From Hymenobacter psoromatis (lineage in GTDB: Bacteria > Bacteroidota > Bacteroidia > Cytophagales > Hymenobacteraceae): a stretch of DNA of 64,000 nucleotides. The stretch covers positions 2,604,001-2,668,000 of the forward strand of contig CP014771.1 in assembly GCA_001596155.1 (NCBI GenBank). Direction: 5' to 3'. Of this stretch, positions 8,408-44,756 are shown piece by piece (position 1 is the stretch's first letter; each line of letters opens with the position of its first letter). The translations under genes were made by a program, and so were the position numbers. The notes beneath the pieces are model-generated. The model saw nothing but the letters and a program-made list of their open reading frames with translations. It was not told where the DNA came from and did not search any database.

Positions 8408-9324
8408 TTAAACGACTGCCGGAAGGCCAGCGGCGAGCGGTTGGTTTTGGCCTTGAACAAGCGGCTGAACGACTGCGGGTGCTCAAAGCCCAGCGCGTAA
8501 GCAATTTCACTCACCGACAAGTCGGTCGTGGCGAGTTGGGTCTTGGCTTTTTCCAGCACTTTCTCGTGGATGTGGTACTGGGTGCTGTGGCCGGTCAGCA
8601 CCGTGAGTAAGCTGCTCAGGTACGTGGGCGAGACGTGCAGCTGGTCGGCCACGTACTGCACGGTCGGCAGCCCAGCTTGCGGCAAGGCCCCGCCGCGAAG
8701 GTAGTCGGTCAGCACGGTGTCCAGGCGTTGCAGCAGGGCGTGGTTCGCTATTTTCCGGGTCAGGAACTGCCGCTGATAAAACCGCTCCGAATAAGTAAGT
8801 AACACCTCCAGCTGAGCGATAATGACGTCCTGGCTGAACTTGTCCGGGTTGGCCAGGTATTCGTGCGCCATGTGCTGGATAATGGCCGTAATCGTGCCCT
8901 CTTCCCGCTCGGAAAGGTGCAGGGCTTCGTTTACCGAGTAGTTAAAGTATTCGTACTGTTTTATTTTCTTCGCCAGCGGCGTATTCCACAGAAAATCGGG
9001 GTGGACCACGACTACCCAGCCCGCGTGGCGGCGCCCTTGGTCCGCGTCAAACTCCACGCTAAAGACCTGGTTGGGAGCCACGAACGACAGCATGCCTTCG
9101 TCAAAATCATACGCCTGCTGGCCGTAGCGCATCTTGGCCCCGAAGTTCTTTTTCAGGGAAATGACGTAAAAATCGGTGACGAAGCTGACCGGCTCGTGGG
9201 CGGGCAGCGGCGCCAGGGTGGCCAGGTCGATGACGCTGAGCAACGGGTGCGCGGGCGCGGGCAGGTTGGCCCGCCGGCAGTACTCCGTGATGGTTTGGAA
9301 GCGGTACGGCGGCGGGGTGGCCAT
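8404..9324 (-). CDS. AraC family transcriptional regulator
   Basis: 306 aa from the ATG at 9322-9324 (MATPPPYRFQTITEYCRR). The open frame extends further upstream but without a convincing start. Residues 1 to about 190 form a cupin-like ligand domain. The C-terminal 100 residues are a double helix-turn-helix ending DLSVSEIAYALGFEHPQSFSRLF, the classic AraC signature. It lies 13 bp downstream of the NmrA-like gene on the same strand, so the two were probably one operon before an IS split the upstream gene. A paralogue (13798-14715) follows an SDR gene in the same arrangement. It is the best candidate to bind the 21-bp-period operators at 11307, 12563 and 12715. The MITE abuts its 3' end. Confidence 0.9.
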   Translation of the reverse strand: MATPPPYRFQTITEYCRRANLPAPAHPLLSVIDLATLAPLPAHEPVSFVTDFYVISLKKNFGAKMRYGQQAYDFDEGMLSFVAPNQVFSVEFDADQGRRHAGWVVVVHPDFLWNTPLAKKIKQYEYFNYSVNEALHLSEREEGTITAIIQHMAHEYLANPDKFSQDVIIAQLEVLLTYSERFYQRQFLTRKIANHALLQRLDTVLTDYLRGGALPQAGLPTVQYVADQLHVSPTYLSSLLTVLTGHSTQYHIHEKVLEKAKTQLATTDLSVSEIAYALGFEHPQSFSRLFKAKTNRSPLAFRQSFN

Positions 9325-10031
9325 GAGCGGCGGCGGATTAGGACTGGTGATAGGCAGCGGCGAATTCTTGGGCAAAGTCGGCCATCTTGACCGTGCCCAG
9401 CACCGCGGGCCGGTGGCGGTAGTAATCAGCATCCACCAGGCCGCGGTGGATGCCGGCGTTCATTTCCACCAGGGCTTTGGCGGCCGGTTCGGGGACGTTG
9501 AATTGGGCCAGCCCGCTCAGCATCTCCTGGTCGGACACCAGCAGCCATTGCAGCTGCGGCTGGCCCACGGCCTCGCCCAGGATGCGGGCCACCTCGTGGC
9601 AGGTAAGTTCGTCGCTGGCCACGTAGCGCACGCGGCGGCCCGCGGCCGGCGTGGTGAGTTCTTCGGCCACGGCTGCCGCGATGTCGCGGGGCGACACCCA
9701 GACGGCTTGGTCCGCGCCGCCGTAATTACCGGCCATCACCCCCCGGCTTTTTATTGAGGCAAGGTGTTGGTACAGGTTGTTGTAAAAGCCCACGGGGCGC
9801 AGGTGGGTGAGGGCGATAGCGGCCGGTAACTCCCCGAAGATGGCTTCGGCCAAGTGATGAAACAGCAGCGCCCCGCTGCCGGCGGCCAAGTCGGCCCCGA
9901 CGCTGCTCAGCTGCACGACGCGCGGCACGCCCGCCTGCCGGATGGCCCCCACGTAGTTCGTGGCGAGCTGCCGCGCCGCGGCCATAAAGTCGAGGGCCGG
10001 GTCGAAGAAGTTGAACGGGGGCAGCATACAA

Positions 10032-10117
10032 TAGACTTGCTAACAACTGATTAGCAAGTTTTTACGTACATAACTAGACTTGCTAACAACTGATTAGCAA
10101 GTTTTTACGTACATAAC
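10032..10117. repeat. Tandem duplication of the IS left end (2 x 43 bp)
   Basis: Bases 10032-10074 and 10075-10117 are identical. Each unit carries the IS left terminal repeat and an internal palindrome, CTTGCTAA and TTAGCAAG separated by CAACTGA. The insertion element thus has a doubled left end. The palindrome could bind the transposase. The outer copy borders the target duplication, so the outer one was presumably used at insertion, or the duplication arose afterwards. Confidence 0.85.
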
Positions 10118-10148
10118 TAATAAATTCTACTTACAACAAGCATTTTCT

Positions 10149-11032
10149 ATGCCATCCAGCATTTATCACAACGCTATCAATGATAGGCAGTACAAAGCAG
10201 CAACTGGTCTTTCGCTAGTAGAGTTTTCGGCACTTTATGAGCATTTCGCTCCTTTATATATTCCCAAGGAACCCCCACGTTATGCCCGGCAGGTGCAACC
10301 TGTTTTAACGGACAAAAGAGAGGCACTTTTTTTTGTTTTGCACTATCATAAAGCGTATCCCACTCTTCAAAATATGGGCATGTATTTTGGTATTTCAGAC
10401 GCAGCCGCCAGCATGTATCTGGAACTCCTTAAGCCTCACTTACAAGCGGCTTTACAACAGCAAAAAGTACAAAATACTTTTATGGAAAGGAATCAGGAGG
10501 CCGTTAATGAGCAATTTGCAGGCATAACTGACCTGGTGATTGATGTAACCGAAGTGTCAATCGAACGCGCTGTTAATCAGCAAGTTCAAAAAGAGCATTA
10601 CAGTGGTAAAAAAAAATTCACACCCTAAAATGGCTAATTATTTGCACCCTTGATAAGCGAATTTTATTCATTAGCAAGGCCTACCCTGGGCATGTACATG
10701 ATTTTACTATTTTTAAAGATATTTTTGGCGGAATTGATTTGAGTGCGTATCGGCTGCATGTCGATTCTGGCTTTACAGGCATAACAAAAGCAGTCAAATG
10801 CAAAGACGTTTGGATTCCGTATAAAGCGAGCAAATATCATCCCTTAACTAAGCTACAAAAAGCAATTAATTCGCTCTTTTCACAGGTAAGAATAGCTGTT
10901 GAAAATGCCATTGCTAAGGTGAAATCATTCTTTATATTACGCATCGAAAACCGAATGAGACAAAAGGCTAAGTTTACCGATGCCATACGAATTTGCACCG
11001 CATTAGCAAATTACAAAATGACAGGTTTATAA
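10149..11032 (+). CDS. IS5-family DDE transposase, expressed by -1 frameshift
   Basis: The first frame (10149-10628) gives 159 aa with an N-terminal HTH-like region and the first catalytic Asp in LVIDVTEVS. It stops just after HYSGKKKFTP. Slipping back one base on the A9 run at 10608-10616 continues the protein as KKKIHTLKWL, through the second acidic motif PGHVHDF and the third in VENAIAKVKSF, to the stop at 11030-11032. The fused product is about 294 aa, a normal IS5-type length, with all three DDE residues. Without the slip the product lacks two catalytic residues, so frameshifting probably limits transposition. A mutation rather than programming cannot be ruled out, but A-run slippage is common in IS elements. 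Confidence 0.85.
10605..10616 (+). promoter_or_regulatory. Putative programmed -1 ribosomal frameshift site (A9)
   Basis: GGT is followed by nine A residues and then TTC. The zero frame reads AAA AAA AAA TTC and stops 12 nt later. The -1 frame opens into the rest of the transposase. An A AAA AAA heptamer is the classic slippery sequence. A downstream stimulatory structure was not identified. Confidence 0.7.
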
Positions 11033-11306
11033 GTCAAGTAATTGATAATAAGTAGTTAGTAACTCTAATACACCGCGTCGGCCCCGGCAAACGTGGCAGC
11101 GAGAAACGGCGCGTCATGTAGCGAGCCAATGGCGGCGGTGGCACCCAGGGCCGCAATGGCGGGTTGGCGGTCGGGCTGGCAGCTGATGACGGTCACGGCG
11201 TGACCTTGGTGCACCAACTCGGTGGTCAGGGGCTGGCTGATGTTGCCAAGCGAACCGGTTACGATGATTTTCATAAGGCAAAGTTCAGACCAGCTACCAC
11301 CGCTGC

Positions 11307-11337
11307 CGTAACCAACTCTCCGGTTGTTGTAGCCGAA
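11307..11337 (-). promoter_or_regulatory. Putative AraC operator A, upstream of the NmrA-like gene
   Basis: On the minus strand, TTCGGCTACA (11337-11328) and GTTGGTTACG (11316-11307) are direct half-sites with a 21-bp period. Twenty-three nucleotides after the second half-site comes CTTTG (11283-11279), part of a GAACTTTG -7-like box. The ATG follows at 11274. Half-site spacing of two helical turns and overlap with the -33 region fit activation by an AraC dimer. Confidence 0.6.
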
Positions 11338-11417
11338 TTTATCGCATCAGCCGGCCGGCCGGCGTGTCGGTCCGGGTGGAAAGCACCCCAGCTGCTAGCC
11401 CAGCCGGAGCGCCTTTT

Positions 11418-12311
11418 TTACCGGTTTACGACGGTCGGCAAGGCGAAATGAACCCCGGTCAACTGCTCGGAGACAGTCCAGAGCCGCGTGGCGAGTTCTC
11501 CGTTCTGGGCGGTTTTGGAGCTTTTGATAAGCTCAGGAGCCCCGCGCATGTGGATAAAATCCTTCGGCCCGGCAAAGCTGTTGCCCGGAATGGCGGCGAC
11601 GGCTGCGTAGAGCACCGGGAGCGCGCCCATTTCCGAACTCTGGGCCAGCAGGCGCACCATCAGGCGGGTGACGAACCCAGTTGCCTGGTCGTAAATGTTT
11701 GAGGCCACAAACCCGGGGTGCGCGGCCATCGCGAGGACGGGCGAGCCGGCGGCGCGGAGGCGGCGCTGGAGTTCGGCGGTGAACAGCAGGTTGGCTAACT
11801 TCGAGTTCGCATACGAGCGGGACTCATTATAAGGGGTCCGTTCCCAGTTGAGGTCGTCAAAGTTGAGGCGGGCCATGCGTTCGGCCTGGGAAGCCAGGGT
11901 CACCACCCGGCCAACGATAGAAGGCAGCAGCAGGTTGGTCAGGGCAAAGGGGCCGAGGTGGTTGGTACCGAATTGGAGTTCGAACCCGTCGGCCGTGCGG
12001 CGGAGGGCGGGGGCCGTGATGCCGGCGTTGTTGATGAGCAAGTCAATCGGGCCATCCCAGGCAGACGCGAAGGCGCGCACCGAATCCAGGCTGGCGAGGT
12101 CGAGTTCCCGCACCTCCGTCACGCCGGGAATGGTGGCCGCGGCCTGCGCGCCTTTGGCCGGGCTGCGGACGGCGAGCACCACGCGGGCCCCGTGCGCGGC
12201 CAGCGTTTTCGCCGTAGCGAGGCCGATGCCGCTGTTGGCCCCGGTTATGATGACGGTCTTGCCGGACATATCGGGCACGAACGCAGTGGGTGAAAGGGGC
12301 GTGGCTTCCAT
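11418..12311 (-). CDS. Short-chain dehydrogenase/reductase (retinol-dehydrogenase-like)
   Basis: 297 aa from the ATG at 12309-12311 (MEATPLSPTAF); the open frame continues upstream without a better start. It shows the SDR cofactor motif TGANSGIG, the NNAG motif in LLINNAGI, the catalytic Tyr and Lys in SYANSK, and a downstream HPGFV. Such enzymes reduce or oxidise carbonyl compounds with NAD(P)H. About 150 bp upstream lie the NmrA remnant and operator B. A transcript from that promoter would run through the remnant into this gene, placing it in the same AraC-type regulon. The substrate is unknown. Confidence 0.9.
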   Translation of the reverse strand: MEATPLSPTAFVPDMSGKTVIITGANSGIGLATAKTLAAHGARVVLAVRSPAKGAQAAATIPGVTEVRELDLASLDSVRAFASAWDGPIDLLINNAGITAPALRRTADGFELQFGTNHLGPFALTNLLLPSIVGRVVTLASQAERMARLNFDDLNWERTPYNESRSYANSKLANLLFTAELQRRLRAAGSPVLAMAAHPGFVASNIYDQATGFVTRLMVRLLAQSSEMGALPVLYAAVAAIPGNSFAGPKDFIHMRGAPELIKSSKTAQNGELATRLWTVSEQLTGVHFALPTVVNR

Positions 12312-12464
12312 TGGATAAGTTGTTTTAATAACTGGTGGGCGAAAGGTTTCCGGCTTGGGGCCGGGGTGCGTAAGCCACGGGCGGGCCAGTGCCCCCGGCA
12401 GCCGGCGCAAGCGCAAGGCAACTTACTATTCCCCGCCCTACCCATGCCCTGCCGAACGTCCGGC

Positions 12465-12530
12465 TTACCGGATGACTTCTGTCAGGGGCCGGCTGCTGGG
12501 GCCGGGCGAACCGGTTACGCTGATTTTCAT
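12465..12530 (-). pseudogene. 5' remnant of an NmrA-like gene
   Basis: A 21-codon frame starting at the ATG 12530-12528 reads MKISVTGSPGPSSRPLTEV and stops. It matches the first residues of the NmrA-like protein at 11274 (MKIIVTGSLGNISQPL). The DNA just upstream is also closely similar, including the operator. This is the surviving front of a duplicated operator-plus-NmrA module whose body was lost, leaving its promoter pointing at the SDR gene at 12311. Confidence 0.75.
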
Positions 12531-12562
12531 ACCGCAAAGTTCCCCTGCATCAGCCCAGTCGC

Positions 12563-12593
12563 CGTAACCAAATCTCCGGTTGTTGTAACCGAA
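12563..12593 (-). promoter_or_regulatory. Putative AraC operator B, upstream of the NmrA remnant and SDR
   Basis: On the minus strand, TTCGGTTACA (12593-12584) and TTTGGTTACG (12572-12563) are half-sites with a 21-bp period. Twenty-three nucleotides later comes CTTTG (12539-12535) in a GAACTTTG box. The layout is identical to operator A. Part of the similarity reflects duplication of the module. Confidence 0.6.
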
Positions 12594-12598
12594 TCTGG

Positions 12599-12684
12599 GT
12601 GATGTTAAACGAATAGGGCAAAACCTCCGAGTCGGAGGTTTTGCCCTATTAGGTCCCTCTCAGAAAACGGAAAATATAGCATGT
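12599..12684. repeat. Left copy of an inverted repeat bounding 12.6-14.85 kb, with internal palindrome
   Basis: GTGATGTTAAACGAATAGGG (12599-12618) and GGTCCCTCTCAGAAAACGGA onward (12652-12684) together match the reverse complement of 14795-14846. Between the two halves this copy carries a roughly 33-bp insert. With its flanks the insert forms a perfect 39-bp palindrome (12612-12650) around CCTCCGAGTCGGAGG. The repeat pair encloses an SDR gene, its operator and a broken AraC gene. Confidence 0.8.
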
Positions 12685-12714
12685 CAAAGGAGTGAGTCGG
12701 GTAAATCGCCTTGG

Positions 12715-12745
12715 TTTGGCTACAAAAAACCGTGGTTAGGCTACA
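12715..12745 (+). promoter_or_regulatory. Putative AraC operator C, upstream of SDR 12798
   Basis: TTTGGCTACA (12715-12724) and TTAGGCTACA (12736-12745) are direct half-sites with a 21-bp period. CTTTG (12769-12773, in GACCTTTG) follows after 23 nt and the ATG is at 12798. The spacing equals that of operators A and B, but the surrounding DNA is unrelated. This makes it independent support for a real regulatory element. Confidence 0.65.
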
Positions 12746-12797
12746 GGCCCCAAATGGCGGCCGGAGACCTTTGTGGGGTCACTAACTTACTACCATC

Positions 12798-13637
12798 ATG
12801 ACCCCTAAGCAGGAAACTTCCCGCGCTGGCGCTACGCCAACGTCAACGCCCGTCCCCACCGCTAGCCCAACGGCGCACCCCACGTCGGCCAGACCCGTCG
12901 CCCTAGTCACGGGGGCCAATCAAGGCATCGGCCTACAGATAGCCAAAGACCTCGTCACCCACGGCTTCACGGTGCTGGTCGGCTCGCGCAACCTCGAGCG
13001 CGGCCAGGCGGCCGCCCAGGAGATTGGGGCGGACGCTATCGCGCTCCAACTCGACGTGACGGACCGCGGGTCCATCGCCGCCGCCGCCGCCCGCATCCGC
13101 CGCGAGTTGGGCCGCCTCGACGTGCTGATTCAGAACGCGGCTATCTCCAATACGCGCAAGGGCCAGCTGTCCCTCCAGGAGTATGCGCAAATATCCCAGC
13201 CCAGCAATGCCTCCCTGGATGAGGTGCGGGCCGTGTGGGAAACTAACGTGTTCGGCGTGCTGGCCGTGTACCAGGCGCTGCTGCCCCTGCTGCGCGAGGC
13301 CCCGGCCGGCCGCATCGTCAACGTGTCGAGCGGCGCGGGCTCGCTGACCTGGATGGGGGACCCGGCTAACCCCTACCACAAGGCCTTCGGCCCCGTCTAC
13401 CCAGCCTCCAAGACGGCGCTCAACGCCCTGACGGTGGCGATGGCCATCGAACTCGAATCGACCGGCATCAAGGTCAACGCCGTCTCTCCGGGCTTCACCA
13501 AGACGGCCCTCAACGGCTACGAGGGCACGGAAACGGTGGAGGAAGGAGCCCGTGAGGCCGTGCGCGTGGCCCTGCTCGGCCCGGACGGTCCGACCGGCAC
13601 GTTTACGCACGCTACCCTCGGAACGCTCCCCTGGTAG
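12798..13637 (+). CDS. Short-chain dehydrogenase/reductase
   Basis: 279 aa from ATG 12798. A Pro/Thr/Ser-rich N-terminal tail of about 32 residues precedes the SDR domain, so a later start is possible. The motifs are TGANQGIG (cofactor), IQNAAIS in place of the usual NNAG, VNVSSGAG with the catalytic Ser, and YPASK with Tyr and Lys. A VNAVSPGFTKT stretch follows, typical of classical SDRs that use NADPH. The gene follows operator C directly and is followed by a broken AraC paralogue. This mirrors the NmrA-AraC arrangement at 8404-11274. The substrate is not known. Confidence 0.9.
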   Translation: MTPKQETSRAGATPTSTPVPTASPTAHPTSARPVALVTGANQGIGLQIAKDLVTHGFTVLVGSRNLERGQAAAQEIGADAIALQLDVTDRGSIAAAAARIRRELGRLDVLIQNAAISNTRKGQLSLQEYAQISQPSNASLDEVRAVWETNVFGVLAVYQALLPLLREAPAGRIVNVSSGAGSLTWMGDPANPYHKAFGPVYPASKTALNALTVAMAIELESTGIKVNAVSPGFTKTALNGYEGTETVEEGAREAVRVALLGPDGPTGTFTHATLGTLPW

Positions 13638-27565: not shown

Positions 27566-28177
27566 ATGAAAAACCGACTTATCCTCCTGCTAATCAGCAC
27601 CTGCTTCTTGGCCAGTTGCCACTCCACGAACCCCACGACGGGCACGACGACGGTAAGCGGGCAGGTGGTGCAGTACCAGACAACTAAAGGCGTGCCCAAC
27701 GCCACGGTGCAGGTCTACCACGCCAGCAGTGGCGGCGGCTACGTGCCGGTGGGCAGCGGCTACCCCGCCGATGCTACCGGCCACTTCGCCTTTGCCTTCG
27801 CGGCCGACAGCAAAACCGGCTACCTGCTACTGGCTAACGCCCCGCCCGGCTACTCCACCGATTGGGCCCTGGCTCCTAGTTTAACGGCCGGACGCAGCAA
27901 TGACAATATTATCATCCCCACCTACGCCCCCGCCTGGGTTAAGCTTCAACTCGTAGATGAACCGCCGAAGAGTCGAGTAGTGATTCACACGCAAGGGTAT
28001 GACGGACCTGGTGACACCTTCTATTATCCTCGCGATACAGCTGTGGTCAGACCATTATTGACTGGGTTTAAGTCCGCAGTATTTTGGTGGGTTAGGGAAC
28101 AAGGCACTGAACAACCATATTCCCAGAAGATTAACCCTGCAGCTTTAGATACGGTTATAGTTCGCATTCCCTTTTAA
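27566..28177 (+). CDS. Tandem lipoprotein family, copy 1
   Basis: 203 aa with a lipoprotein signal (lipobox LASC, Cys18). Residues about 27-130 form a carboxypeptidase-regulatory/transthyretin-like beta-sandwich (TTVSGQVVQYQTTKGVPNAT, then a GYPADATGHF turn). The last third is unrelated in sequence to copies 2 and 3 and is more AT-rich. The first copy of a head-to-tail array of three full genes and one truncated gene, all on the plus strand with 2-4 nt gaps, so it is surely co-transcribed. Function unknown; it is probably exposed on the outer membrane. Confidence 0.8.
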   Translation: MKNRLILLLISTCFLASCHSTNPTTGTTTVSGQVVQYQTTKGVPNATVQVYHASSGGGYVPVGSGYPADATGHFAFAFAADSKTGYLLLANAPPGYSTDWALAPSLTAGRSNDNIIIPTYAPAWVKLQLVDEPPKSRVVIHTQGYDGPGDTFYYPRDTAVVRPLLTGFKSAVFWWVREQGTEQPYSQKINPAALDTVIVRIPF

Positions 28178-28181
28178 TACT

Positions 28182-28796
28182 GTGCGCAACCTGTCATTAT
28201 TTTTATTTAGCACCTGCTTCTTGGCCAGTTGCCACTCCACGAACCCCACGACGGGCACGACGACGGTAAGCGGGCAGGTGGTGCAGTACCAGACAACCAA
28301 GGGCGTACCCAACGCCACGGTGCAGGTCTACCACGCCAGCAGTGGCGGCGGCTACGTGCCAGTGGGCAGCGGCTACCCCGCCGATGCCACTGGCCACTTC
28401 GCATTTGCCTTCGCGGCTGACAGCAAAACTGGCTACCTCGTGCGAGCCGATGCCCCGCCCGGCTACTCCACCGATTGGGCCCTGGCCCCGCTACTCACCG
28501 CCGGGCGTAGCAATGACAATATCATCATCCCCACCTACGCCCCCGCCTGGGTTAAGCTTCAACTCGTCAATACTTCACACAAGAAACGATACTCGTTAAT
28601 TATTCAAGGCTATTCGGGCTCCGGTGAGCTTATCTATAATCCCAAAGATACCACGCTGGTTCGCCCTCTCTTAGCCAACCTCAAAACAACTATCTCTTGG
28701 GGCATTGTAGACCAAGCAACCGGCGCTTTATCTCAAGACTATCAGTATGTGCAGCCTAATGCCCTAGATACGGTCACAGTCCGCATTCCTTTTTAG
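28182..28796 (+). CDS. Tandem lipoprotein family, copy 2
   Basis: 204 aa starting at GTG 28182, four bases after the stop of copy 1. The lipobox is LASC (Cys17). Bases 28209-28567 are nearly identical at DNA level to 27596-27954 of copy 1, then the sequences part abruptly after KLQLV. The abrupt end of similarity suggests recent duplication or gene conversion of the front part with a different tail. The tail shares the NTSHKK start with copy 3. Confidence 0.8.
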   Translation: MRNLSLFLFSTCFLASCHSTNPTTGTTTVSGQVVQYQTTKGVPNATVQVYHASSGGGYVPVGSGYPADATGHFAFAFAADSKTGYLVRADAPPGYSTDWALAPLLTAGRSNDNIIIPTYAPAWVKLQLVNTSHKKRYSLIIQGYSGSGELIYNPKDTTLVRPLLANLKTTISWGIVDQATGALSQDYQYVQPNALDTVTVRIPF

Positions 28797-28799
28797 CAA

Positions 28800-29423
28800 A
28801 TGCGTCTACCTACTTGCTTGCTCGTCTTGCTCTTAGCTTCCTGCCACGCCACGGACCCAACGACGGGCACTACCACGGTGAGCGGGCAGGTGGTGCAGTA
28901 CCAAACCACTAAGGGCGTACCCAATGCCATAGTGCAAGTCTACCACGCCAGCTCCGGCGGGGGCTACCTGCCCGTGGGCAGCGGCTACCCCGCCGATGCC
29001 ACTGGCCACTTCACTTTCAACTTTGACGCTGACAGCAAGACCGGCTATCTGCTACTAGCTAACGCCCCGCCCGGCTACTCTACCGATTGGGCCTTAGCTC
29101 CCAGCTTAACGGCCGGACGCAAAAACGAGGGCCTTGTCATTCCTACCTACGCTCCAACTTGGCTTAAGCTCCGTCTTATTAATACTTCACATAAGAAACA
29201 GTATTCTATTTCTATTCAAGGCTATGCTGGTGCAGCAATAGGAGGGCAAGGTGATTTCTTTTATGACCCCAGAGACACCACCTTGATACGAACAACGCAA
29301 GCAATCTACTACCCAACAAGCGTCTCCTGGTTCATAACTGGACGAGATGGTAGTACATCGCAAAATTACCAGTCTATTAATCCTGGCCCCCTGGATACAA
29401 CAACCGTGCGCATTCCCTTTTAG
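28800..29423 (+). CDS. Tandem lipoprotein family, copy 3
   Basis: 207 aa from ATG 28800, three bases after copy 2. The lipobox is LASC (Cys15). The front domain matches copies 1 and 2 (GQVVQYQTTKGVPNA, then YPADATGHFTFNFDADSKTG) but with more substitutions. The tail (INTSHKKQYSISIQGYAG) resembles copy 2 over a short distance and then diverges. All copies end in a TVRIPF-like motif (TVIVRIPF, TVTVRIPF, TTVRIPF), so the extreme C-terminus is conserved although the region before it is not. Confidence 0.8.
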   Translation: MRLPTCLLVLLLASCHATDPTTGTTTVSGQVVQYQTTKGVPNAIVQVYHASSGGGYLPVGSGYPADATGHFTFNFDADSKTGYLLLANAPPGYSTDWALAPSLTAGRKNEGLVIPTYAPTWLKLRLINTSHKKQYSISIQGYAGAAIGGQGDFFYDPRDTTLIRTTQAIYYPTSVSWFITGRDGSTSQNYQSINPGPLDTTTVRIPF

Positions 29424-29425
29424 CT

Positions 29426-29569
29426 ATGCGCAGACTACTATTTATAGCCCTGCTCAACGCTTGGCTCTTAGCTTCCTGCCACCCCACGGACCCGACGACG
29501 GGCACCACCACGGTGAGTGGGCAGGTGGTACAGTACCAAACGACTAAGAGCCTATCAATAGTTGTGTAG
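29426..29569 (+). pseudogene. Tandem lipoprotein family, truncated copy 4
   Basis: ATG 29426 gives MRRLLFIALLNAWLLASCHP, then the family sequence VSGQVVQYQTTK. It then switches to unrelated sequence (SLSIVV) and stops at 29567-29569 after 47 codons. The break falls inside the conserved domain, so the array was cut by a deletion or insertion. Bases 29570-29728 hold nothing recognisable. Confidence 0.85.
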
Positions 29570-36741: not shown

Positions 36742-37506
36742 CTACCCCCCAAACACCGCGCCCGCCAGCGCCAGCACGGCCCGGCGCGTGGGTTCGGGCT
36801 GCTCCAGGTACGCCTGGTGGCCGCTGCCTTCCAGGAAGAGCGCCGCGCCGAGGGGGGGTAGGGCGGCCTGGGCCACCGAGTCAGCCAGGGGCACGGCCAC
36901 GTCGTGCTTGCCGGCCACCAGCAGCACCGGAAAGGGCGCGGCGCGCAGCACGGCGGTGCGGTCGGGGCGGGCGGCCATGCCGCGCAGCGCGCCCGCGATG
37001 GTGGCCTCGGGCGTGGCCTTGCCGATGTCTTCGAGCAGGGCCAGGGCCTCGGGCAGGCGGTCGCGGTTGGCGGGGGCGAAAAGCGGGCGTACGAAGCTGC
37101 CCATGAACTTTTCGAGGCCGTGGCGCTCGACGAAGCTGATGTTTTTTTCGCGGTTCTGGCGCTTCTCGTCAGTGTCGGGGTAGGCCGTGGAGTTGAGCAG
37201 CGCCAGGCCGGCCAGGCGGTCGGGGTAGCGCTCGGCCAGGGCCAGCGCCACGTAGCCGCCCATGCTATGGCCCACCACCAGCACGGGGGCGGTGGCACCT
37301 TTCTGGTCGAGGTAGCCGGCCACGTGGCGTGCTTGCGCCTCCATCGAAAAATCGGGCACCAGGTTGCGGTTGGTGCCGTGGCCCAGCAGGTTGGGCGTCA
37401 GCAGGCGATAGCTGGCCGGGAAGGGCCGCGTGAATTCGGTCCAGACTTCGCGGCTTTCGGCAAAGCCGTGGAGAAAGAGAATGGTGGGCAACGGAGCGGT
37501 GGACAT
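36742..37506 (-). CDS. Alpha/beta hydrolase
   Basis: 254 aa from the ATG at 37504-37506 (MSTAPLPTILFLHGFAESRE). The motifs are LHGF (oxyanion region), VVGHSMGGYVAL with the nucleophile Ser, AGKHDVAVP with the Asp, and EGSGHQAYLEQP with the His. It is a small cytosolic esterase or lipase-like enzyme of unknown substrate. Its first 96 bp are duplicated at 39844-39939. The DNA immediately upstream of the start is now the ATPase/TOPRIM island, so its original promoter was displaced. Confidence 0.88.
   Translation of the reverse strand: MSTAPLPTILFLHGFAESREVWTEFTRPFPASYRLLTPNLLGHGTNRNLVPDFSMEAQARHVAGYLDQKGATAPVLVVGHSMGGYVALALAERYPDRLAGLALLNSTAYPDTDEKRQNREKNISFVERHGLEKFMGSFVRPLFAPANRDRLPEALALLEDIGKATPEATIAGALRGMAARPDRTAVLRAAPFPVLLVAGKHDVAVPLADSVAQAALPPLGAALFLEGSGHQAYLEQPEPTRRAVLALAGAVFGG
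37411..37506. repeat. Left 96-bp direct repeat flanking the ATPase/TOPRIM island
   Basis: This segment is the start of the hydrolase gene (its first 32 codons, minus strand). It is repeated in the same orientation at 39844-39939 with only two mismatches that I can see. The distance between repeats is 2433 bp. Recombination between them would delete the two-gene island and leave the hydrolase intact. Confidence 0.92.
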
Positions 37507-37601
37507 AGTTTGGGCAAAACTAACAGCGCCCGGCAAAGCCCTTCACGAATGCGTACTTTTGAACAGCTCACAGATTTACCCAATTCTTCCTTACCGAAGC
37601 T

Positions 37602-39188
37602 ATGCTTACCCGGCTCGAAGTTACCAATTTTAAGAATTTGGTGGGCATCGATGTCCGCTTTGGCGCTTTCACCTGCATCGCGGGGGCCAATGGAGTAGGC
37701 AAATCCAACCTGTTTGATGCCATTCGCTTTCTTAGCTTACTCACCGACCTGCCGATACTGGACGCGGTAATGTCGATGCGAGACGAGGGCAACCGGTCAT
37801 CGGACCTACGCACTCTTTTTCACAAAGCCGGCGACTATTACGCTGATACAATGACGTTTGCGGCCGAAATGATTATCCCGCAGGATGGCGTTGATGATTT
37901 GGGCCAGGTAGCGCGGGCCGCCATTACGTTTGTGCGCTACGAGTTGCACATCCGCTACCGGGAGGCTGACGCATACAATCCATCCGGCAGCTTAGAAATC
38001 ATTCGGGAAGAATTACGACCGCTGGGTATTGCGGAGGCCCGTAAAAACCTTGCTTTCCCACATTCGGTTGCTTTCCGCAAATCAGCAGTTACCGGGTTGC
38101 GACGCAATGGTACAGCGTTTATTTCTACCGTTATGGAGGATGACCAGTGTACCATCCAGATTCACCAGGATGGCGGCAGCAGCGGCCGGCCCCAGCGCCG
38201 TCTTGCCACTAAGCTTCCCCGCACGGTATTATCGGTTACCAACGCGACGGAACATCCAACGGCCCTATTAGCTAAGCGCGAGATGCAATCCTGGCAGTTT
38301 TTGCAAATGGAACCAACCGCACTCCGAAGACCCGATGAGCTGAACCTGAGCGCGGCCTCTCACATCGCAGCCAATGGGGGGCACCTGCCAGCTACCCTTT
38401 TTCGACTGGCTAGCCAGGAATTAGTGCAGGAAGACTCCTTTGATGGCACTCGACTCGCGCTGGATGGGCCGGTGCAGGCGGGGGTTTTTAGCCGCATCGC
38501 CCGCCGGTTGAACGAATTGATTGAAGATGTGCGGGAGATTTTCGTGGACCGCGACGATAAGCGGCAGCTGCTGGTCCTGAAGGTCAAGTTGAAGGATGGC
38601 ACCGAACTCCCGGCGCGTTCCCTCTCGGACGGCACCCTTCGCTTTTTAGCTTTGGCCGTGCTGGAACAGGACAGCCAGGCGCAAGGGCTTTTATGCTTGG
38701 AAGAGCCGGAGAATGGCATTCATCCGGCTCGGATTGCGGCGATGCTTCGACTGCTTAATGATATTGCCTGCGACACTACCCTAGCCATTGGTCCCGATAA
38801 TCCTTTGCGACAAGTCATTATTAATACCCATGCCCCCGCAGTGGTGCAGGAGGTGGATGACGACAGCCTGGTTCTAGCCGATACGGTAGGCGTGCATCAG
38901 GCGGCCACCGCTACCCAGCCGGCTAGTTCCTATCGCATCCTAAGTCTTAGCTGCCTCAGCGATACGTGGCGAGGCAATGAGGCCCGGCGGGAAGCTACCC
39001 CGGCTGAAAAGCCGATGGCTACGCTTGCCCGTGGGAAACTCGTGCGTTATCTGGACCCGGTATTGCCCGAAACAGCAACCCCGCAGTTGGCCGATAGTAT
39101 GTCAGCTGCTGCGCGGCGGCGGGTGCGCGTTATTGACCGGCCCGATATACAGGCGCTGAAAGGCACCCAAACTATCCTGGCACTTTAG
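37602..39188 (+). CDS. AAA/ABC-type (AAA_21-like) ATPase, candidate defence component
   Basis: 528 aa. It opens MLTRLEVTNFKNLVG, typical of RecF/OLD-like ATPases, with Walker A GANGVGKSN (residues 28-36). It carries an ABC-signature-like SLSDGTLRF near 340, Walker B LLCLEEPENG near 362-371, and an H-loop NTHAP near 406. The region between about 100 and 330 is the family's variable insert. No nuclease domain is fused. The next gene, 18 nt downstream, encodes a TOPRIM-like protein. Together they resemble an OLD/GajA enzyme split in two. The gene lies inside the 96-bp-repeat-flanked island. A role in phage defence is inferred from architecture and context only. Confidence 0.85.
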   Translation: MLTRLEVTNFKNLVGIDVRFGAFTCIAGANGVGKSNLFDAIRFLSLLTDLPILDAVMSMRDEGNRSSDLRTLFHKAGDYYADTMTFAAEMIIPQDGVDDLGQVARAAITFVRYELHIRYREADAYNPSGSLEIIREELRPLGIAEARKNLAFPHSVAFRKSAVTGLRRNGTAFISTVMEDDQCTIQIHQDGGSSGRPQRRLATKLPRTVLSVTNATEHPTALLAKREMQSWQFLQMEPTALRRPDELNLSAASHIAANGGHLPATLFRLASQELVQEDSFDGTRLALDGPVQAGVFSRIARRLNELIEDVREIFVDRDDKRQLLVLKVKLKDGTELPARSLSDGTLRFLALAVLEQDSQAQGLLCLEEPENGIHPARIAAMLRLLNDIACDTTLAIGPDNPLRQVIINTHAPAVVQEVDDDSLVLADTVGVHQAATATQPASSYRILSLSCLSDTWRGNEARREATPAEKPMATLARGKLVRYLDPVLPETATPQLADSMSAAARRRVRVIDRPDIQALKGTQTILAL

Positions 39189-39206
39189 TTTTGCTATTTG
39201 CCCGCT

Positions 39207-39848
39207 ATGCGCCGTATCACCTTTACGCTGCTCACCGATGGCTCGTCAGACCGGTGTTTATTACCCCACATTCAATGGGCGATAGCCGAAGCCCTGGCTG
39301 GCGAATCGTACCAGCTGGATGCTCAATGGGCTGATTTGCGCGGCCTGCCACAAGCAAGCACTGAGCTAGCCGACCGGATTCGGCTGGCTGTCGAGCTATA
39401 TCCCTGCGACCTGCTTCTTATTCACCGGGATAGCGAAAGCCAGCCATATGCCAAACGTGAAACGGAAATAACAGCGGCCCTGGGTGAGCTATCAGCGTCG
39501 GCGCTGCCGGTTAGCGCGCGGCTGGTTCCGGTTCGGATGCAGGAAACGTGGCTTTTAGTCGATGAGCAGGCCATTCGGGTCGCGGCTGGTAACCCGAAAG
39601 GGCGGGTTGCCTTAGCTATTCCTCGAATTGGCACCCTAGAAACATTGCCTAATCCAAAAGTCATCCTGCATACGGCCCTGCGAGCCGCCTCGGAGCTAAG
39701 TGCTCGCCGACTTCATCGCTTCAATCCAGAAGCCCGGGCTTTTCAGGTGGGCGATAGCATAACTGACTTTACGCCTTTGCGGCAGCTGCCTTCCTTTCAG
39801 CGTTTTAGCGTCGAGCTTCGGCAAGCCCTTGCCGCTGTGAAGCGCTAG
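39207..39848 (+). CDS. DUF4276/TOPRIM-like partner of the ATPase
   Basis: 213 aa from ATG 39207; a TTG three codons upstream is possible. It starts MRRITFTLLTDGSSDRCLLP, where the acidic turn (D11, D15) takes the place of the TOPRIM Glu motif. It then has a strand ending LLLIHRDSES (residues 69-78), giving the D-x-[ED] metal site, and QETWLLVDEQAIR. This pattern fits DUF4276/RloB-like TOPRIM folds that pair with AAA ATPases. Its stop codon lies within the right 96-bp repeat. A nuclease activity is plausible but unproven. Confidence 0.75.
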   Translation: MRRITFTLLTDGSSDRCLLPHIQWAIAEALAGESYQLDAQWADLRGLPQASTELADRIRLAVELYPCDLLLIHRDSESQPYAKRETEITAALGELSASALPVSARLVPVRMQETWLLVDEQAIRVAAGNPKGRVALAIPRIGTLETLPNPKVILHTALRAASELSARRLHRFNPEARAFQVGDSITDFTPLRQLPSFQRFSVELRQALAAVKR

Positions 39849-39939
39849 CCGGGAAGGGCCGCGTGAATTCGGTCCAGACTTCGCGGCTTTCGGCAAAGCC
39901 GTGGAGAAAGAGAATGGTGGGCAACGGAGCGGCGGACAT
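39844..39939. repeat. Right 96-bp direct repeat flanking the ATPase/TOPRIM island
   Basis: A second copy of the hydrolase 5' end, in the same orientation as 37411-37506. Its first bases provide the stop codon (TAG 39846-39848) of the TOPRIM-like gene. It ends exactly at the duplicated start codon. Beyond it lies what was presumably the original promoter region between the hydrolase and the divergent gene at 39988. Confidence 0.92.
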
Positions 39940-39987
39940 GGCAGCTACTACCTTGCGGGCGGCAAGTATAGAGGCCAAAACTACGGT

Positions 39988-40965
39988 ATGATTGCACGGC
40001 AGCGTTACCCTTTCTTACTCGCTATCGGTCTAGGTTTGGCCTACGCGTTGGCTACCCGCTTCTTGTTTGACGCTGATGGTTTTTTCCAACTCTTCAACAG
40101 CAGCCTCCTCAGCCTGGCTTTTCTAGTGGTGATGCCGCTGGGGCTGGGAGCCATCACCGCCCACTTCACTCCCCAAACCGCCTCCGCGTGGTGGCGGCTG
40201 GCCTGGGCTCCTTTGCTGGCGGTGCTATGCTTTCTACTAGCAGCGCTGCTATTTCATCTGGAAGGGCTTATCTGCGTGCTCATTATAAGTCCGCTATTTT
40301 TATTTGTATCCTGGCTGGGCGCGATAATTTATGCCCGAATCGCGGACCCTTTGCCCCAAAAGCGCGATAAGGCGCTGGTCGTGGCCGCCTTCGCGCTGCT
40401 GCCTTTTATCGCCGGCCCGCTCGAAAACTACCTGAACAACCCCGACGATTTTCGGCGCGTCGAAAACTCGGTGGAGATAAACGCGCCGGCCGCCGTGGTG
40501 TGGCAGCACATCATTCGGGTGGCTCCCATTCGGGCCGCCGATTTGGGGCCTAGCATCATTGATGACATCGGCTTTCCGCGGCCCGTGGAGGCTACGCTCA
40601 GCCACGAGGGGGTAGGCGGCGTGCGCCACGCCACCTTCGAGCGCGGCGTCGAGTTTATCGAGACCGTGGACGACTGGCAGCCGCTGCGGCGCCTCTCGTT
40701 CAGCATCGTGCCCAATACGGCCACCATTCCGCCCACTACATTTGATGAGCACGTTATCGTGGGCGGGCGGTTTTTCGACGTGCTGCGCGGCACCTACGAG
40801 CTGCACCCCGCTGGCCCTGGGCGCACCCGGCTGGTGCTGCACAGTCAGCAGCGCCTCAGCACGCACCTCAACTGGTACGCGGGCCTTTGGACGAGCTTCG
40901 TGATGCGTGAGATTCAGCAGCGCATCCTGGTGGTGCTCAAGCAGCGCTGCGAAAACGTGGGCTAA
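39988..40965 (+). CDS. Membrane protein with C-terminal SRPBCC domain
   Basis: 325 aa from ATG 39988; the frame is open further upstream only because it reads through the duplicated hydrolase repeat. Four hydrophobic helices occupy residues about 8-140 (LLAIGLGLAYALATRFL, LLSLAFLVVMPLGLGAI, LLAVLCFLLAALLF, LLFLFVSWLG-like). They are followed by an SRPBCC/START-like ligand-binding domain (VENSVEINAPAAVVWQHIIR) to the end. The domain binds hydrophobic ligands in other proteins. The function here is unknown. Confidence 0.8.
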   Translation: MIARQRYPFLLAIGLGLAYALATRFLFDADGFFQLFNSSLLSLAFLVVMPLGLGAITAHFTPQTASAWWRLAWAPLLAVLCFLLAALLFHLEGLICVLIISPLFLFVSWLGAIIYARIADPLPQKRDKALVVAAFALLPFIAGPLENYLNNPDDFRRVENSVEINAPAAVVWQHIIRVAPIRAADLGPSIIDDIGFPRPVEATLSHEGVGGVRHATFERGVEFIETVDDWQPLRRLSFSIVPNTATIPPTTFDEHVIVGGRFFDVLRGTYELHPAGPGRTRLVLHSQQRLSTHLNWYAGLWTSFVMREIQQRILVVLKQRCENVG

Positions 40966-42951: not shown

Positions 42952-44175
42952 ATGAACGAGCAACTGATTGTCAAAAACTTCGGACCTATTAAAGACGCCA
43001 CGGTGGACTTTAAGCGCGTCACGGTTTTCATTGGCCCGACGGGCGGGGGCAAGAGCACGCTGGCGAAGCTAGCGGCGATTATGCGAGAAAGAGTACTATT
43101 TTCAAATGACAGCAAAAAGCAGTATGGGGTATTAAATGAATTTTTATATAATTATGAAATAAATAATTATTCGCACACTGGCAGTGAATTTCACTGGCGG
43201 GTTGAAGATAGCGGTCGATTCGACAGATTAGATGCGAGTGAGGAAGCTGTTATTGTACACTTAGACTTATTTCCTCAGCTAGGAAGCGAAGAGGAGTATG
43301 TAACAAATAAACTCAAAGATATTATTGATAATAGCAAGGCTGATAATAGCAATGAATTAGAAGCCTCTGCAATATATAATTTCACACAAAAATTTTCTAC
43401 CGAATTTGATAGGTTAACAGTAAGCTGGTACAATCGAAGGTTTCCAAAGACGATATATGTACCGGCTGACCGTATGTTCGTTTCCGCTGCCCTAAAAGGC
43501 TTATCATCTGTAGGATTTCAAAATACTTCTCTTAGTAAACCAATCCTAGATTTTTTAGAAGCATTTTCAGCATCAAAACAACGTATCATTAAATTCCCCA
43601 TCAAATTTTTAGATATTCTTTATGAGTCTGATGGGGGTGATGGTAAAGTTAAAACTCCTGATGCGACTCTCTATTTACACGAAAGCGCGAGCGGTATTCA
43701 ATCAGTAGTACCAATGCTTTCAGTAATATTAGACAAGCTGTATTGGAATAGTATCTCGTTTAATCCGGATACCTTTAACTTCATTATTGAAGAGCCGGAG
43801 CTAAACCTCTACCCCACCGCGCAGCAGGGGCTGCTGAACTGGCTGGTGGAGAAATGTACGAAGGGCGACAACGACCTGACTATCACCACGCACAGCCCCT
43901 ATATTCTCTCGCACCTCAACCTGCTGCTCTACGCCTACCAAGTGGCCGAGAAGCATCCCGACCGCAAGGAAGCCGTGGCAGCCATTGTGCCCGAGGCTAG
44001 TTGGATTAATCCGAAAAAATTTGCCTGCTACCACGTAGGCGGCGGTGGCGTAAAATCGTTGGTTGATGAGGAGATGGGGCTGATTGATACCAACGAACTA
44101 GACGGGCTTTCCGGAGATGCTGCCGATGCGTTCGACAATCTCATTCGTTTATCCAAGGGGTTTGCCATCAAATGA
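42952..44175 (+). CDS. AAA/ABC-type ATPase, candidate defence component with mosaic composition
   Basis: 407 aa from ATG 42952 (MNEQLIVKNFGPIKDATVDF). The motifs are Walker A GPTGGGKST (residues 28-36), signature-like SASGIQSVV near 245, Walker B IIEEPELNLYP near 276-286, and an H-loop THSPYIL near 313. Bases 43081-43795, encoding the insert between Walker A and Walker B, are strongly AT-rich with different codon use. The two ends match the GC-rich genome. The stop overlaps the next start (ATGA), so the two genes are co-translated. Defence or DNA-processing function is inferred from the architecture. Confidence 0.85.
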   Translation: MNEQLIVKNFGPIKDATVDFKRVTVFIGPTGGGKSTLAKLAAIMRERVLFSNDSKKQYGVLNEFLYNYEINNYSHTGSEFHWRVEDSGRFDRLDASEEAVIVHLDLFPQLGSEEEYVTNKLKDIIDNSKADNSNELEASAIYNFTQKFSTEFDRLTVSWYNRRFPKTIYVPADRMFVSAALKGLSSVGFQNTSLSKPILDFLEAFSASKQRIIKFPIKFLDILYESDGGDGKVKTPDATLYLHESASGIQSVVPMLSVILDKLYWNSISFNPDTFNFIIEEPELNLYPTAQQGLLNWLVEKCTKGDNDLTITTHSPYILSHLNLLLYAYQVAEKHPDRKEAVAAIVPEASWINPKKFACYHVGGGGVKSLVDEEMGLIDTNELDGLSGDAADAFDNLIRLSKGFAIK

Positions 44176-44756
44176 TTGACCGCATCGTGGCAGCTTATCC
44201 GCGGAAAGAACAGGCAGTTTGCATTACAGCACTTTCTCACCCAGTTTTTCACGTTTACGACCCGCTTTCTTCGGATGAAAGCGGGGCCGCCGAACGGCTT
44301 CCCTCCACTTTCCGCCTGGGGCCAGACAAAGAAGACCGCGAGCTGACCGTGCGCAATGAAACCAGCCAGCCCGTTCATTTGGTGGCTATCGATTGTTGCT
44401 TGTTTACCTCCGATGACCCCAGCCGCTGCGACTGCGCCTTGGTGCAGGACGAAACTATCCATTTCGTGGAATTCAAGCATGGCAAATACGCGCGTCGGAC
44501 CGAGCGCATCAGGGACTGCATCAGGCAGTTGGCTAATTCCATAAATGACTTCTACAACGCGGGCATTTTACCGCCGCAGCATACTGTTTTAGCTATTGCC
44601 TGCGTCGGCTTTACAGAAGGTTCTCCGCCACAAAACGCTTCCTTAGAAGCGCTACAGGCGCGCATCAACTTGCGGGTACCAGATGATATTGTGGTAGAGT
44701 TGCGCGTGACGGATACCACACTGTTTGGACCTTCAGCGGCAGCCGAAGCACAGTAA
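44172..44756 (+). CDS. PD-(D/E)XK-like nuclease, partner of the ATPase
   Basis: 194 aa, starting within the ATPase stop codon (4-bp overlap). The core reads CDCALVQDETIHFVEFKHGK. Asp87, then Glu100-Phe-Lys102 on the next strand, match the D...ExK metal-binding site of PD-(D/E)XK nucleases. A helix with QLANSINDFY follows, as in many such nucleases. I do not recognise a named family for the N-terminal 80 residues. The obligatory coupling to an SMC/ABC-like ATPase suggests an effector nuclease controlled by that ATPase. Confidence 0.7.
   Translation: MIDRIVAAYPRKEQAVCITALSHPVFHVYDPLSSDESGAAERLPSTFRLGPDKEDRELTVRNETSQPVHLVAIDCCLFTSDDPSRCDCALVQDETIHFVEFKHGKYARRTERIRDCIRQLANSINDFYNAGILPPQHTVLAIACVGFTEGSPPQNASLEALQARINLRVPDDIVVELRVTDTTLFGPSAAAEAQ

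Follow-up and report, generated by a model that had tools for sequence, protein, structure and literature searches.

A HEC-01 ATPase and TOPRIM-like gene pair inserted at the start of a core hydrolase gene in Hymenobacter psoromatis, between copies of that gene start

How small defence modules move without a transposase or integrase is an open question. Insertion of restriction-modification (RM) genes with target duplications of about 100 bp is on record (PMC3874152, PMC3031569, PMC1643837), a mode that these papers trace to Nobusato 2000 and Furuta 2010 and for which the literature consulted gives no settled mechanism. For type VI secretion system (T6SS) modules, one-sided recombination with displaced immunity genes has been proposed (PMC5361080). 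Here we report a locus with a comparable footprint in a stretch of 64,000 nucleotides from Hymenobacter psoromatis (assembly GCA_001596155.1, contig CP014771.1, positions 2,604,001 to 2,668,000; hereafter the window). It holds an ATPase gene and a TOPRIM-like partner gene that match HEC-01, a PADLOC candidate class for which, to our knowledge, no function has been tested. Like the RM insertions, the locus has direct repeats of about 100 bp, a small module without mobility genes and an empty site in relatives; it differs in that the module is an ATPase-TOPRIM pair, that the repeat border lies at a gene end, and that the paired copies at three sister loci have the look of orthologous gene ends from separate lineages. 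With homology-facilitated illegitimate recombination and T6SS displacement (PMC5361080) it would share a homologous anchor, an illegitimate joint and a displaced native remnant, but in the T6SS case an old effector is displaced, whereas here nothing but the end of the core gene is, and the gene itself remains intact. Insertions of this kind are known; what appears to be new is the gene-end border together with gene ends that seem, at the sister loci, to have been imported.

A repeat search of the window returned two direct repeats of 96 nt that are 94/96 (98%) identical and lie 2433 nt apart from start to start (Table 1). The left repeat begins at the start codon (37506, minus strand) of an alpha/beta-hydrolase gene (Abhydrolase_1, Pfam E 6.8e-25), a core gene matched in 115 of 120 same-genus genomes, and the outer border of the repeat falls exactly at that codon. 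The mismatches are at positions 4 and 90 of 96, with all bases between them identical. The first is at the joint, where the stop codon of the partner gene (TAG, 39846-39848) contributes its A as the differing base, and the second is in hydrolase codon 3 (ACC versus GCC), six bases before the gene terminus. Among the 12 closest same-genus relatives by hydrolase, 11 loci of about 20 kb each were examined (G107, whose contig ends at the gene, was excluded). All 11 lack 37507-39843 and have a single copy of the gene start, and in six of them the right-hand flank of the window (39940 onward) lies directly upstream of the hydrolase. No match to HEC-01 DNA was found in the shorter hydrolase loci of 29 relatives (L003-L031). 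Gene body and right flank are thus the ancestral parts, and all DNA between 37507 and the right repeat is an addition, so that the pair was inserted at the hydrolase start and the gene remained whole. A preliminary description of this DNA had already recognized the repeats as the first 32 hydrolase codons, placed the partner stop codon within the right repeat and proposed an insertion at the hydrolase start with the gene rebuilt, all of which these comparisons bear out; exact excision, which it had also raised, is possible in principle and was not observed.

Only two genes, both with intact open reading frames (ORFs), lie between the repeats, and there is no recombinase gene in the insert. The two proteins match the PADLOC models HEC-01A (4e-95) and HEC-01B (6e-24) and are neighbours in the same order as in HEC-01, so that, to judge from sequence matches, the window pair is HEC-01, a candidate defence class, and hence already listed; in comparison with that class only the insertion footprint is new. 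Of 369 relatives found by a genome scan, we took the loci of the best 80 and added the window and two further loci from the same genus; in 75 of these 83 HEC-01 loci, HEC-01A and HEC-01B are adjacent. The ATPase, of the SMC/Rad50/OLD type, contains GANGVGKS, LSDGT, LLCLEEPENG and His410, which we take to be its Walker A, signature and Walker B motifs and its H-loop. Its profile scores are 317 bits to HEC-01A, 93 to AriA of PARIS (AriA/AriB) and 46 to GajA. The partner has no AriB match, and only HEC-01B models were returned for it at E up to 0.1. In GajA and OLD a single polypeptide holds both parts, and in Gabija a helicase gene lies alongside (PMC10568477), whereas the window parts are in two genes with no helicase gene beside them; next to the pair are the hydrolase and an ORF of 354 aa, which was judged by its translation alone.

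TOPRIM domains have an acidic motif with E or D after strand 1 and DxD or DxE after strand 3. HEC-01B, with strands at 2-9 and 69-73 and conserved acidic positions D11, D75, E77 and E113, fits this pattern; in an alignment of 61 members, position 11 is D in 53, E in 7 and a gap in 1, position 75 is D in all 61, position 77 is E in 54 and D in 7, and E113 is present in all 61. With a limit of E 1, 56 of these 61 match DUF4276 (best 8e-12), although the window protein itself has no Pfam match, DUF4276 included. Its fold match to known TOPRIM structures is only middling. Foldseek against the PDB gave nothing at E 0.001 or better, and a PDB profile search gave three rows with a best E of 0.82. The designation DUF4276/TOPRIM-like in the preliminary description needs slight correction in these respects. 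Its proposal of an uncharacterized defence module agrees with the candidate class, except that the module is not unlisted, and its view of the pair as GajA split in two finds no support at the family level in the profile scores. To judge from architecture alone, the pair is most probably a two-part system of phage sensor and nuclease in which, as in PARIS, the ATPase would hold the TOPRIM-like partner and release it.

Counting the window genome itself, HEC-01A was found in 5 of 120 genomes of the genus (E limit 1e-30; two are only 38% identical) and in 5 of 350 of the order (E limit 1e-80). A search with the ATPase alone gave three plasmid records (E limit 1e-30) and one phage record (1e-20), all below 60% identity, and a pattern scan of IMG/VR gave no confirmed relative of either protein. 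No paper on HEC-01 with PADLOC, and none on DUF4276, was found in the open-access literature searched, nor was an ATPase-TOPRIM module with such a footprint found there, one of the searches being limited to RM papers.

The new 95 bp between the hydrolase and the ATPase are promoter-like. This stretch has 47.4% GC, compared with 56.6 and 57.5% for the pair and 71.9% for the hydrolase body. On its minus strand, 8 nt before the hydrolase ATG, is a TAnnTTTG, presumably the Bacteroidota -7 element, and a plus-strand copy stands at 37554, before the ATPase. This motif occurs within 60 nt of the hydrolase ATG in 24 of 28 relatives (one further locus was too short), compared with a background of 0.9% of 60-nt stretches of the window. 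The sequence around the minus-strand copy, GTTAGTTTTGCCC, resembles GTTACTTTTGCCC, the hydrolase promoter in L023, L024, L026 and L031. The ancestral upstream region has a promoter-like TAnnTTTG 36 nt from the displaced ATG; this displaced native promoter now aims into the 3' end of HEC-01B and could yield antisense RNA.

Table 1. Features of the window locus and of loci with duplicated gene ends
Locus	Feature	Coordinates	Strand	Basis
Window	alpha/beta-hydrolase, whole; left repeat is its first 32 codons	36742..37506	-	ORF, Pfam, genus matches
Window	left repeat, functional gene start joined to gene body	37411..37506	-	repeat search, copy comparison
Window	new intergenic region, 47.4% GC	37507..37601	.	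unmatched in hydrolase loci of 29 relatives
Window	HEC-01A, SMC/Rad50/OLD-type ABC ATPase, 528 aa	37602..39188	+	ORF, Pfam, PADLOC, alignment
Window	HEC-01B, DUF4276-type TOPRIM-like partner, 213 aa	39207..39848	+	ORF, PADLOC, alignment
Window	right repeat, displaced 32-codon gene start, still attached to ancestral upstream region; contains HEC-01B stop	39844..39939	-	repeat search, relatives
Window	ancestral hydrolase upstream region, now facing HEC-01B 3' end	39940..40000	.	contiguous with hydrolase start in L005-L008, L011, L013
Window, L111	cargo HEC-01; host hydrolase start (window), nuoN 3' end (L111)			
L241	different HEC-01 subtype, enclosed by duplicated gene 3' end	8577-10826		1e-82, 6e-43
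L281	AbiL-like ATPase and DUF3226 partner; host polA 3' end	8607-13494		4e-56
L252	cargo DUF433/DUF5615 pair			
L264	cargo SUKH-type gene; host 573-aa gene			
L263	cargo unknown single gene; host mfd			
L295	cargo unknown single gene, 165-aa insert; host permease-like			
L239	cargo protein with secretion-tail match below Pfam cut-off			

We consider it moderately probable that the pair entered on the DNA of a relative, by homologous recombination in the gene end combined with an illegitimate joint at the far side, a reading that for the window draws partly on analogy with other loci. The donor piece would have carried HEC-01 divergently beside a related bacterium's version of the hydrolase gene. 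At one end it would recombine by homology within the first codons of the resident hydrolase, with a crossover just inside the gene that brings in a foreign promoter and possibly the first codons, and the other end, just past the HEC-01B stop, would be joined illegitimately to resident codon 32. The hydrolase would thereby be left whole, with its native start remaining as the displaced fragment. The piece could have been linear and anchored by homology, as in homology-facilitated illegitimate recombination, or it could first have been circularized by an illegitimate joint and then have integrated through a single crossover. The window event would have used this route: the shape of its repeat and the hydrolase-like promoter in the new flank fit a donor piece carrying its own hydrolase promoter, and its anatomy would fit one homologous and one illegitimate joint, on the strength of two mismatches in 96. 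In Escherichia coli, DNA homologous at one end gave mostly gene-end duplications, of 109-950 bp in the 14 clones that were sequenced, for which a shortened circle and a single crossover are the authors' explanation (PMC3240628).

The same anatomy was found elsewhere in the genus. We scanned 112 same-genus regions (2.26 Mb) for non-tandem direct repeats: 60 centred on AAA_21 hits and 20 on N6/N4 methylase hits, both picked by hand, 12 hydrolase loci including the window and 20 arbitrary positions. With the 25 repeat pairs that passed the filter and L241, added by hand, there were 26, of which eight are gene-end cases (window, L239, L241, L252, L263, L264, L281 and L295) as classed by eye and not blind; L111, from another phylum, is a ninth. 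The remaining 18 comprise repeats within a single ORF, short repeats between genes, paralogs and unclear cases. Since the survey was biased to AAA_21 genes, the proportion of ATPase pairs in the cargo cannot be taken as unbiased. Repeats were no denser around AAA_21 genes (13 pairs in 1.18 Mb) than at arbitrary positions (5 in 0.4 Mb). The host gene is different in all nine cases. In seven of nine the repeat border is within 3 bp of a start or stop codon, with L241 at 14 bp and L295 at 24 bp past it; the repeat detected in L263 ends 7 bp short of the stop codon, although the match itself reaches the stop. The displaced copy has its inner border within about 16 bp of the partner stop codon in three cases (the window, L241 and L281). 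The preliminary description had advised looking for the pair at other loci with host-gene-end duplications. Seven further same-genus cases of such duplications, five of them ending at the start or stop codon and one enclosing another HEC-01 (L241), came to light. Its wording that the pair inserted by carrying or generating a copy of the 5' end of the gene is close to the best reading, in that the gene-end pattern recurs at other loci, but the gene-end-mimicking integration habit that it suggested was not seen in any site-specific form, as host genes vary and the insert is without a recombinase.

Codon-by-codon comparison of the two copies is a cheap test of native duplication against an imported gene end. 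At three sister loci the copies differ without a single amino-acid change, by 14 bases in mfd (L263), 7 in the 573-aa gene (L264) and 10 in polA (L281), for which the probability of all changes being synonymous under single random changes is 4e-9, 9e-5 and 3e-6, respectively. In L264 and L281 the stop codons differ as TAA and TAG, both valid. Displaced copies have no reason to keep an amino-acid sequence, which argues that these copies diverged as working gene ends in separate genomes. For polA, three relatives (L314, L315 and L317) have the empty site, with the flank of the displaced copy of L281 lying 1-3 bp after the gene end, and at nine variable sites 29 other polA ends match either copy by turns, so neither L281 copy simply decayed from the other. 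A comparison with 29 other mfd ends did not identify the foreign copy in L263. The first 122 of 243 bases in L263 and the first 95 of 144 in L264 are identical and every difference is in the outer part, with a hand-calculated probability under uniform placement of about 6e-5 and 5e-4, which is rough as conservation varies along a gene. This pattern is what a homologous crossover in the gene end leaves, a native inner and a foreign outer part, and the window repeat shares the crossover-like shape. We did not establish that this synonymous-difference test is new, as no literature search was aimed at it.

L295 (312-1252), whose repeat differences are all synonymous, has a counterpart, L373, in the nearest relative. 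An 18-bp deletion that keeps the frame accompanies this shared arrangement, and between the window genome and this relative the functional and the displaced type of gene end have traded roles. L295 shows recombination between gene ends.

Across all phyla, flanking repeats of at least 28 nt and at least 85% identity were found at 6 of the 83 HEC-01 loci and at none of 93 controls, which were shifted placements around HEC-01 loci scanned at the same settings. With laxer settings the counts were 11 of 83 and 7 of 93, and no control match combines 40 nt or more with 85% identity or more; the window repeat exceeds chance. Of the six, only the window and L111 are clean on inspection (L078, L111 and L116 gene by gene, L097 and L058 from repeat tables). 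L058 has several repeats of one family. In L078 and L097, the latter from the same genus, the repeats are start fragments of a gene that presumably has a DUF4058 motif. The L116 repeat consists of an antitoxin-like fragment, and HEC-01B there breaks off about 10 codons in. Within 4655-14157 of L116, HEC-01A is between a 1407-aa ATPase-like and a methyltransferase-like gene, functions that we assign by reading the sequence, and the module would appear to be part of a larger defence-like operon. L110 and L111, from close genomes, have HEC-01 after nuoN in common with different DNA just beyond, and the copy of the nuoN end downstream of nuoN is present in L111 only; the site downstream of nuoN may be a hot spot.

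A plain insertion with a long target duplication, in which a transposition-like or repair process copied about 96 bp and both copies are native, would be in keeping with the 98% identity of the window copies over a segment in which relatives are at about 82-92%, and RM systems insert with long, variable target duplications on the order of 100 bp (PMC3874152). We nevertheless regard it as rather unlikely. The outer border is exactly at the start codon, and in most other cases too it is at a gene end; a random duplication would continue into the intergenic region, so the gene-end borders speak against plain target duplication at the sister loci. The purely synonymous differences at three other loci and the hydrolase-like promoter already present in the new flank also count against it. 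Site-specific elements restore their target gene with their own copy of its end, and gene-end borders would fit such an element with its integrase acting in trans and the module carrying a mimic of the gene start as attachment site. This is very improbable given nine different host genes and no recombinase in the window insert; a crossover at the inner border would not give the identical inner and differing outer halves of L263 and L264, and no shared core sequence was seen by eye at the inner borders of the nine cases. We disfavour, as very improbable, the idea that the locus is what remains of a segmental duplication or rearrangement at which the pair was already present. L295 does demonstrate that gene-end repeats can be of old and complex origin, but all 11 relatives inspected have a clean empty site, and ancestral upstream DNA adjoins the right repeat.

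Several observations weigh against entry on a relative's DNA as well. The window copies differ at just two positions, one of them synonymous, so that the window alone cannot separate import from plain duplication. Amino-acid changes number 6 over the 52 codons of L252, one of them an in-frame stop on the displaced side, and 6 over the 27 codons of L241, and 6 of 8 differences in L111 and one of two in L239 are non-synonymous; in L252, L241 and L111 this would be expected either of fragments that are older and have decayed or of a plain duplication. The copies of L281 differ over their whole length with no internal crossover, and L295, being older than the split from the nearest relative, was withdrawn as clean evidence of insertion. 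A general enrichment of flanking repeats at HEC-01 loci is not firmly supported, there being no clear excess at lax settings. No donor with HEC-01 beside the hydrolase was found: HEC-01A and the hydrolase share a contig in none of the other four same-genus genomes, which are draft assemblies, and the HEC-01A hits of the order-wide search (350 genomes) were not read for a hydrolase neighbourhood. Homology-facilitated illegitimate recombination, moreover, usually leaves deletions (PMC3240628).

Beyond this locus, we tentatively suggest that small conflict modules lacking mobility genes pass as gene-end hitchhikers from one bacterium to a related one. They would travel with the end of an adjoining core gene and use that end as an integration site via host recombination, with the gene kept whole and the native end displaced, so that 'insertion with long target duplication' would be a footprint rather than transposition. 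If the gene-end reading is true, it explains how modules land beside housekeeping genes without breaking them and offers a footprint for finding new ones; the gene-end border and the apparently imported gene ends of the sister loci make the mechanism testable.

Elsewhere in the window, a second ATPase pair matches PADLOC PDC-M29A/B (42955-44756; 2e-50 and 1e-11), parts of which align at the same place in L041, L042, L044, L045, L047 and L050. It lies outside the insertion and looks like an old resident. A repeat in three to four copies with a spacing of 612-635 bp is present at 27591-29554, and a perfect 43-bp tandem duplication at 10032-10117.

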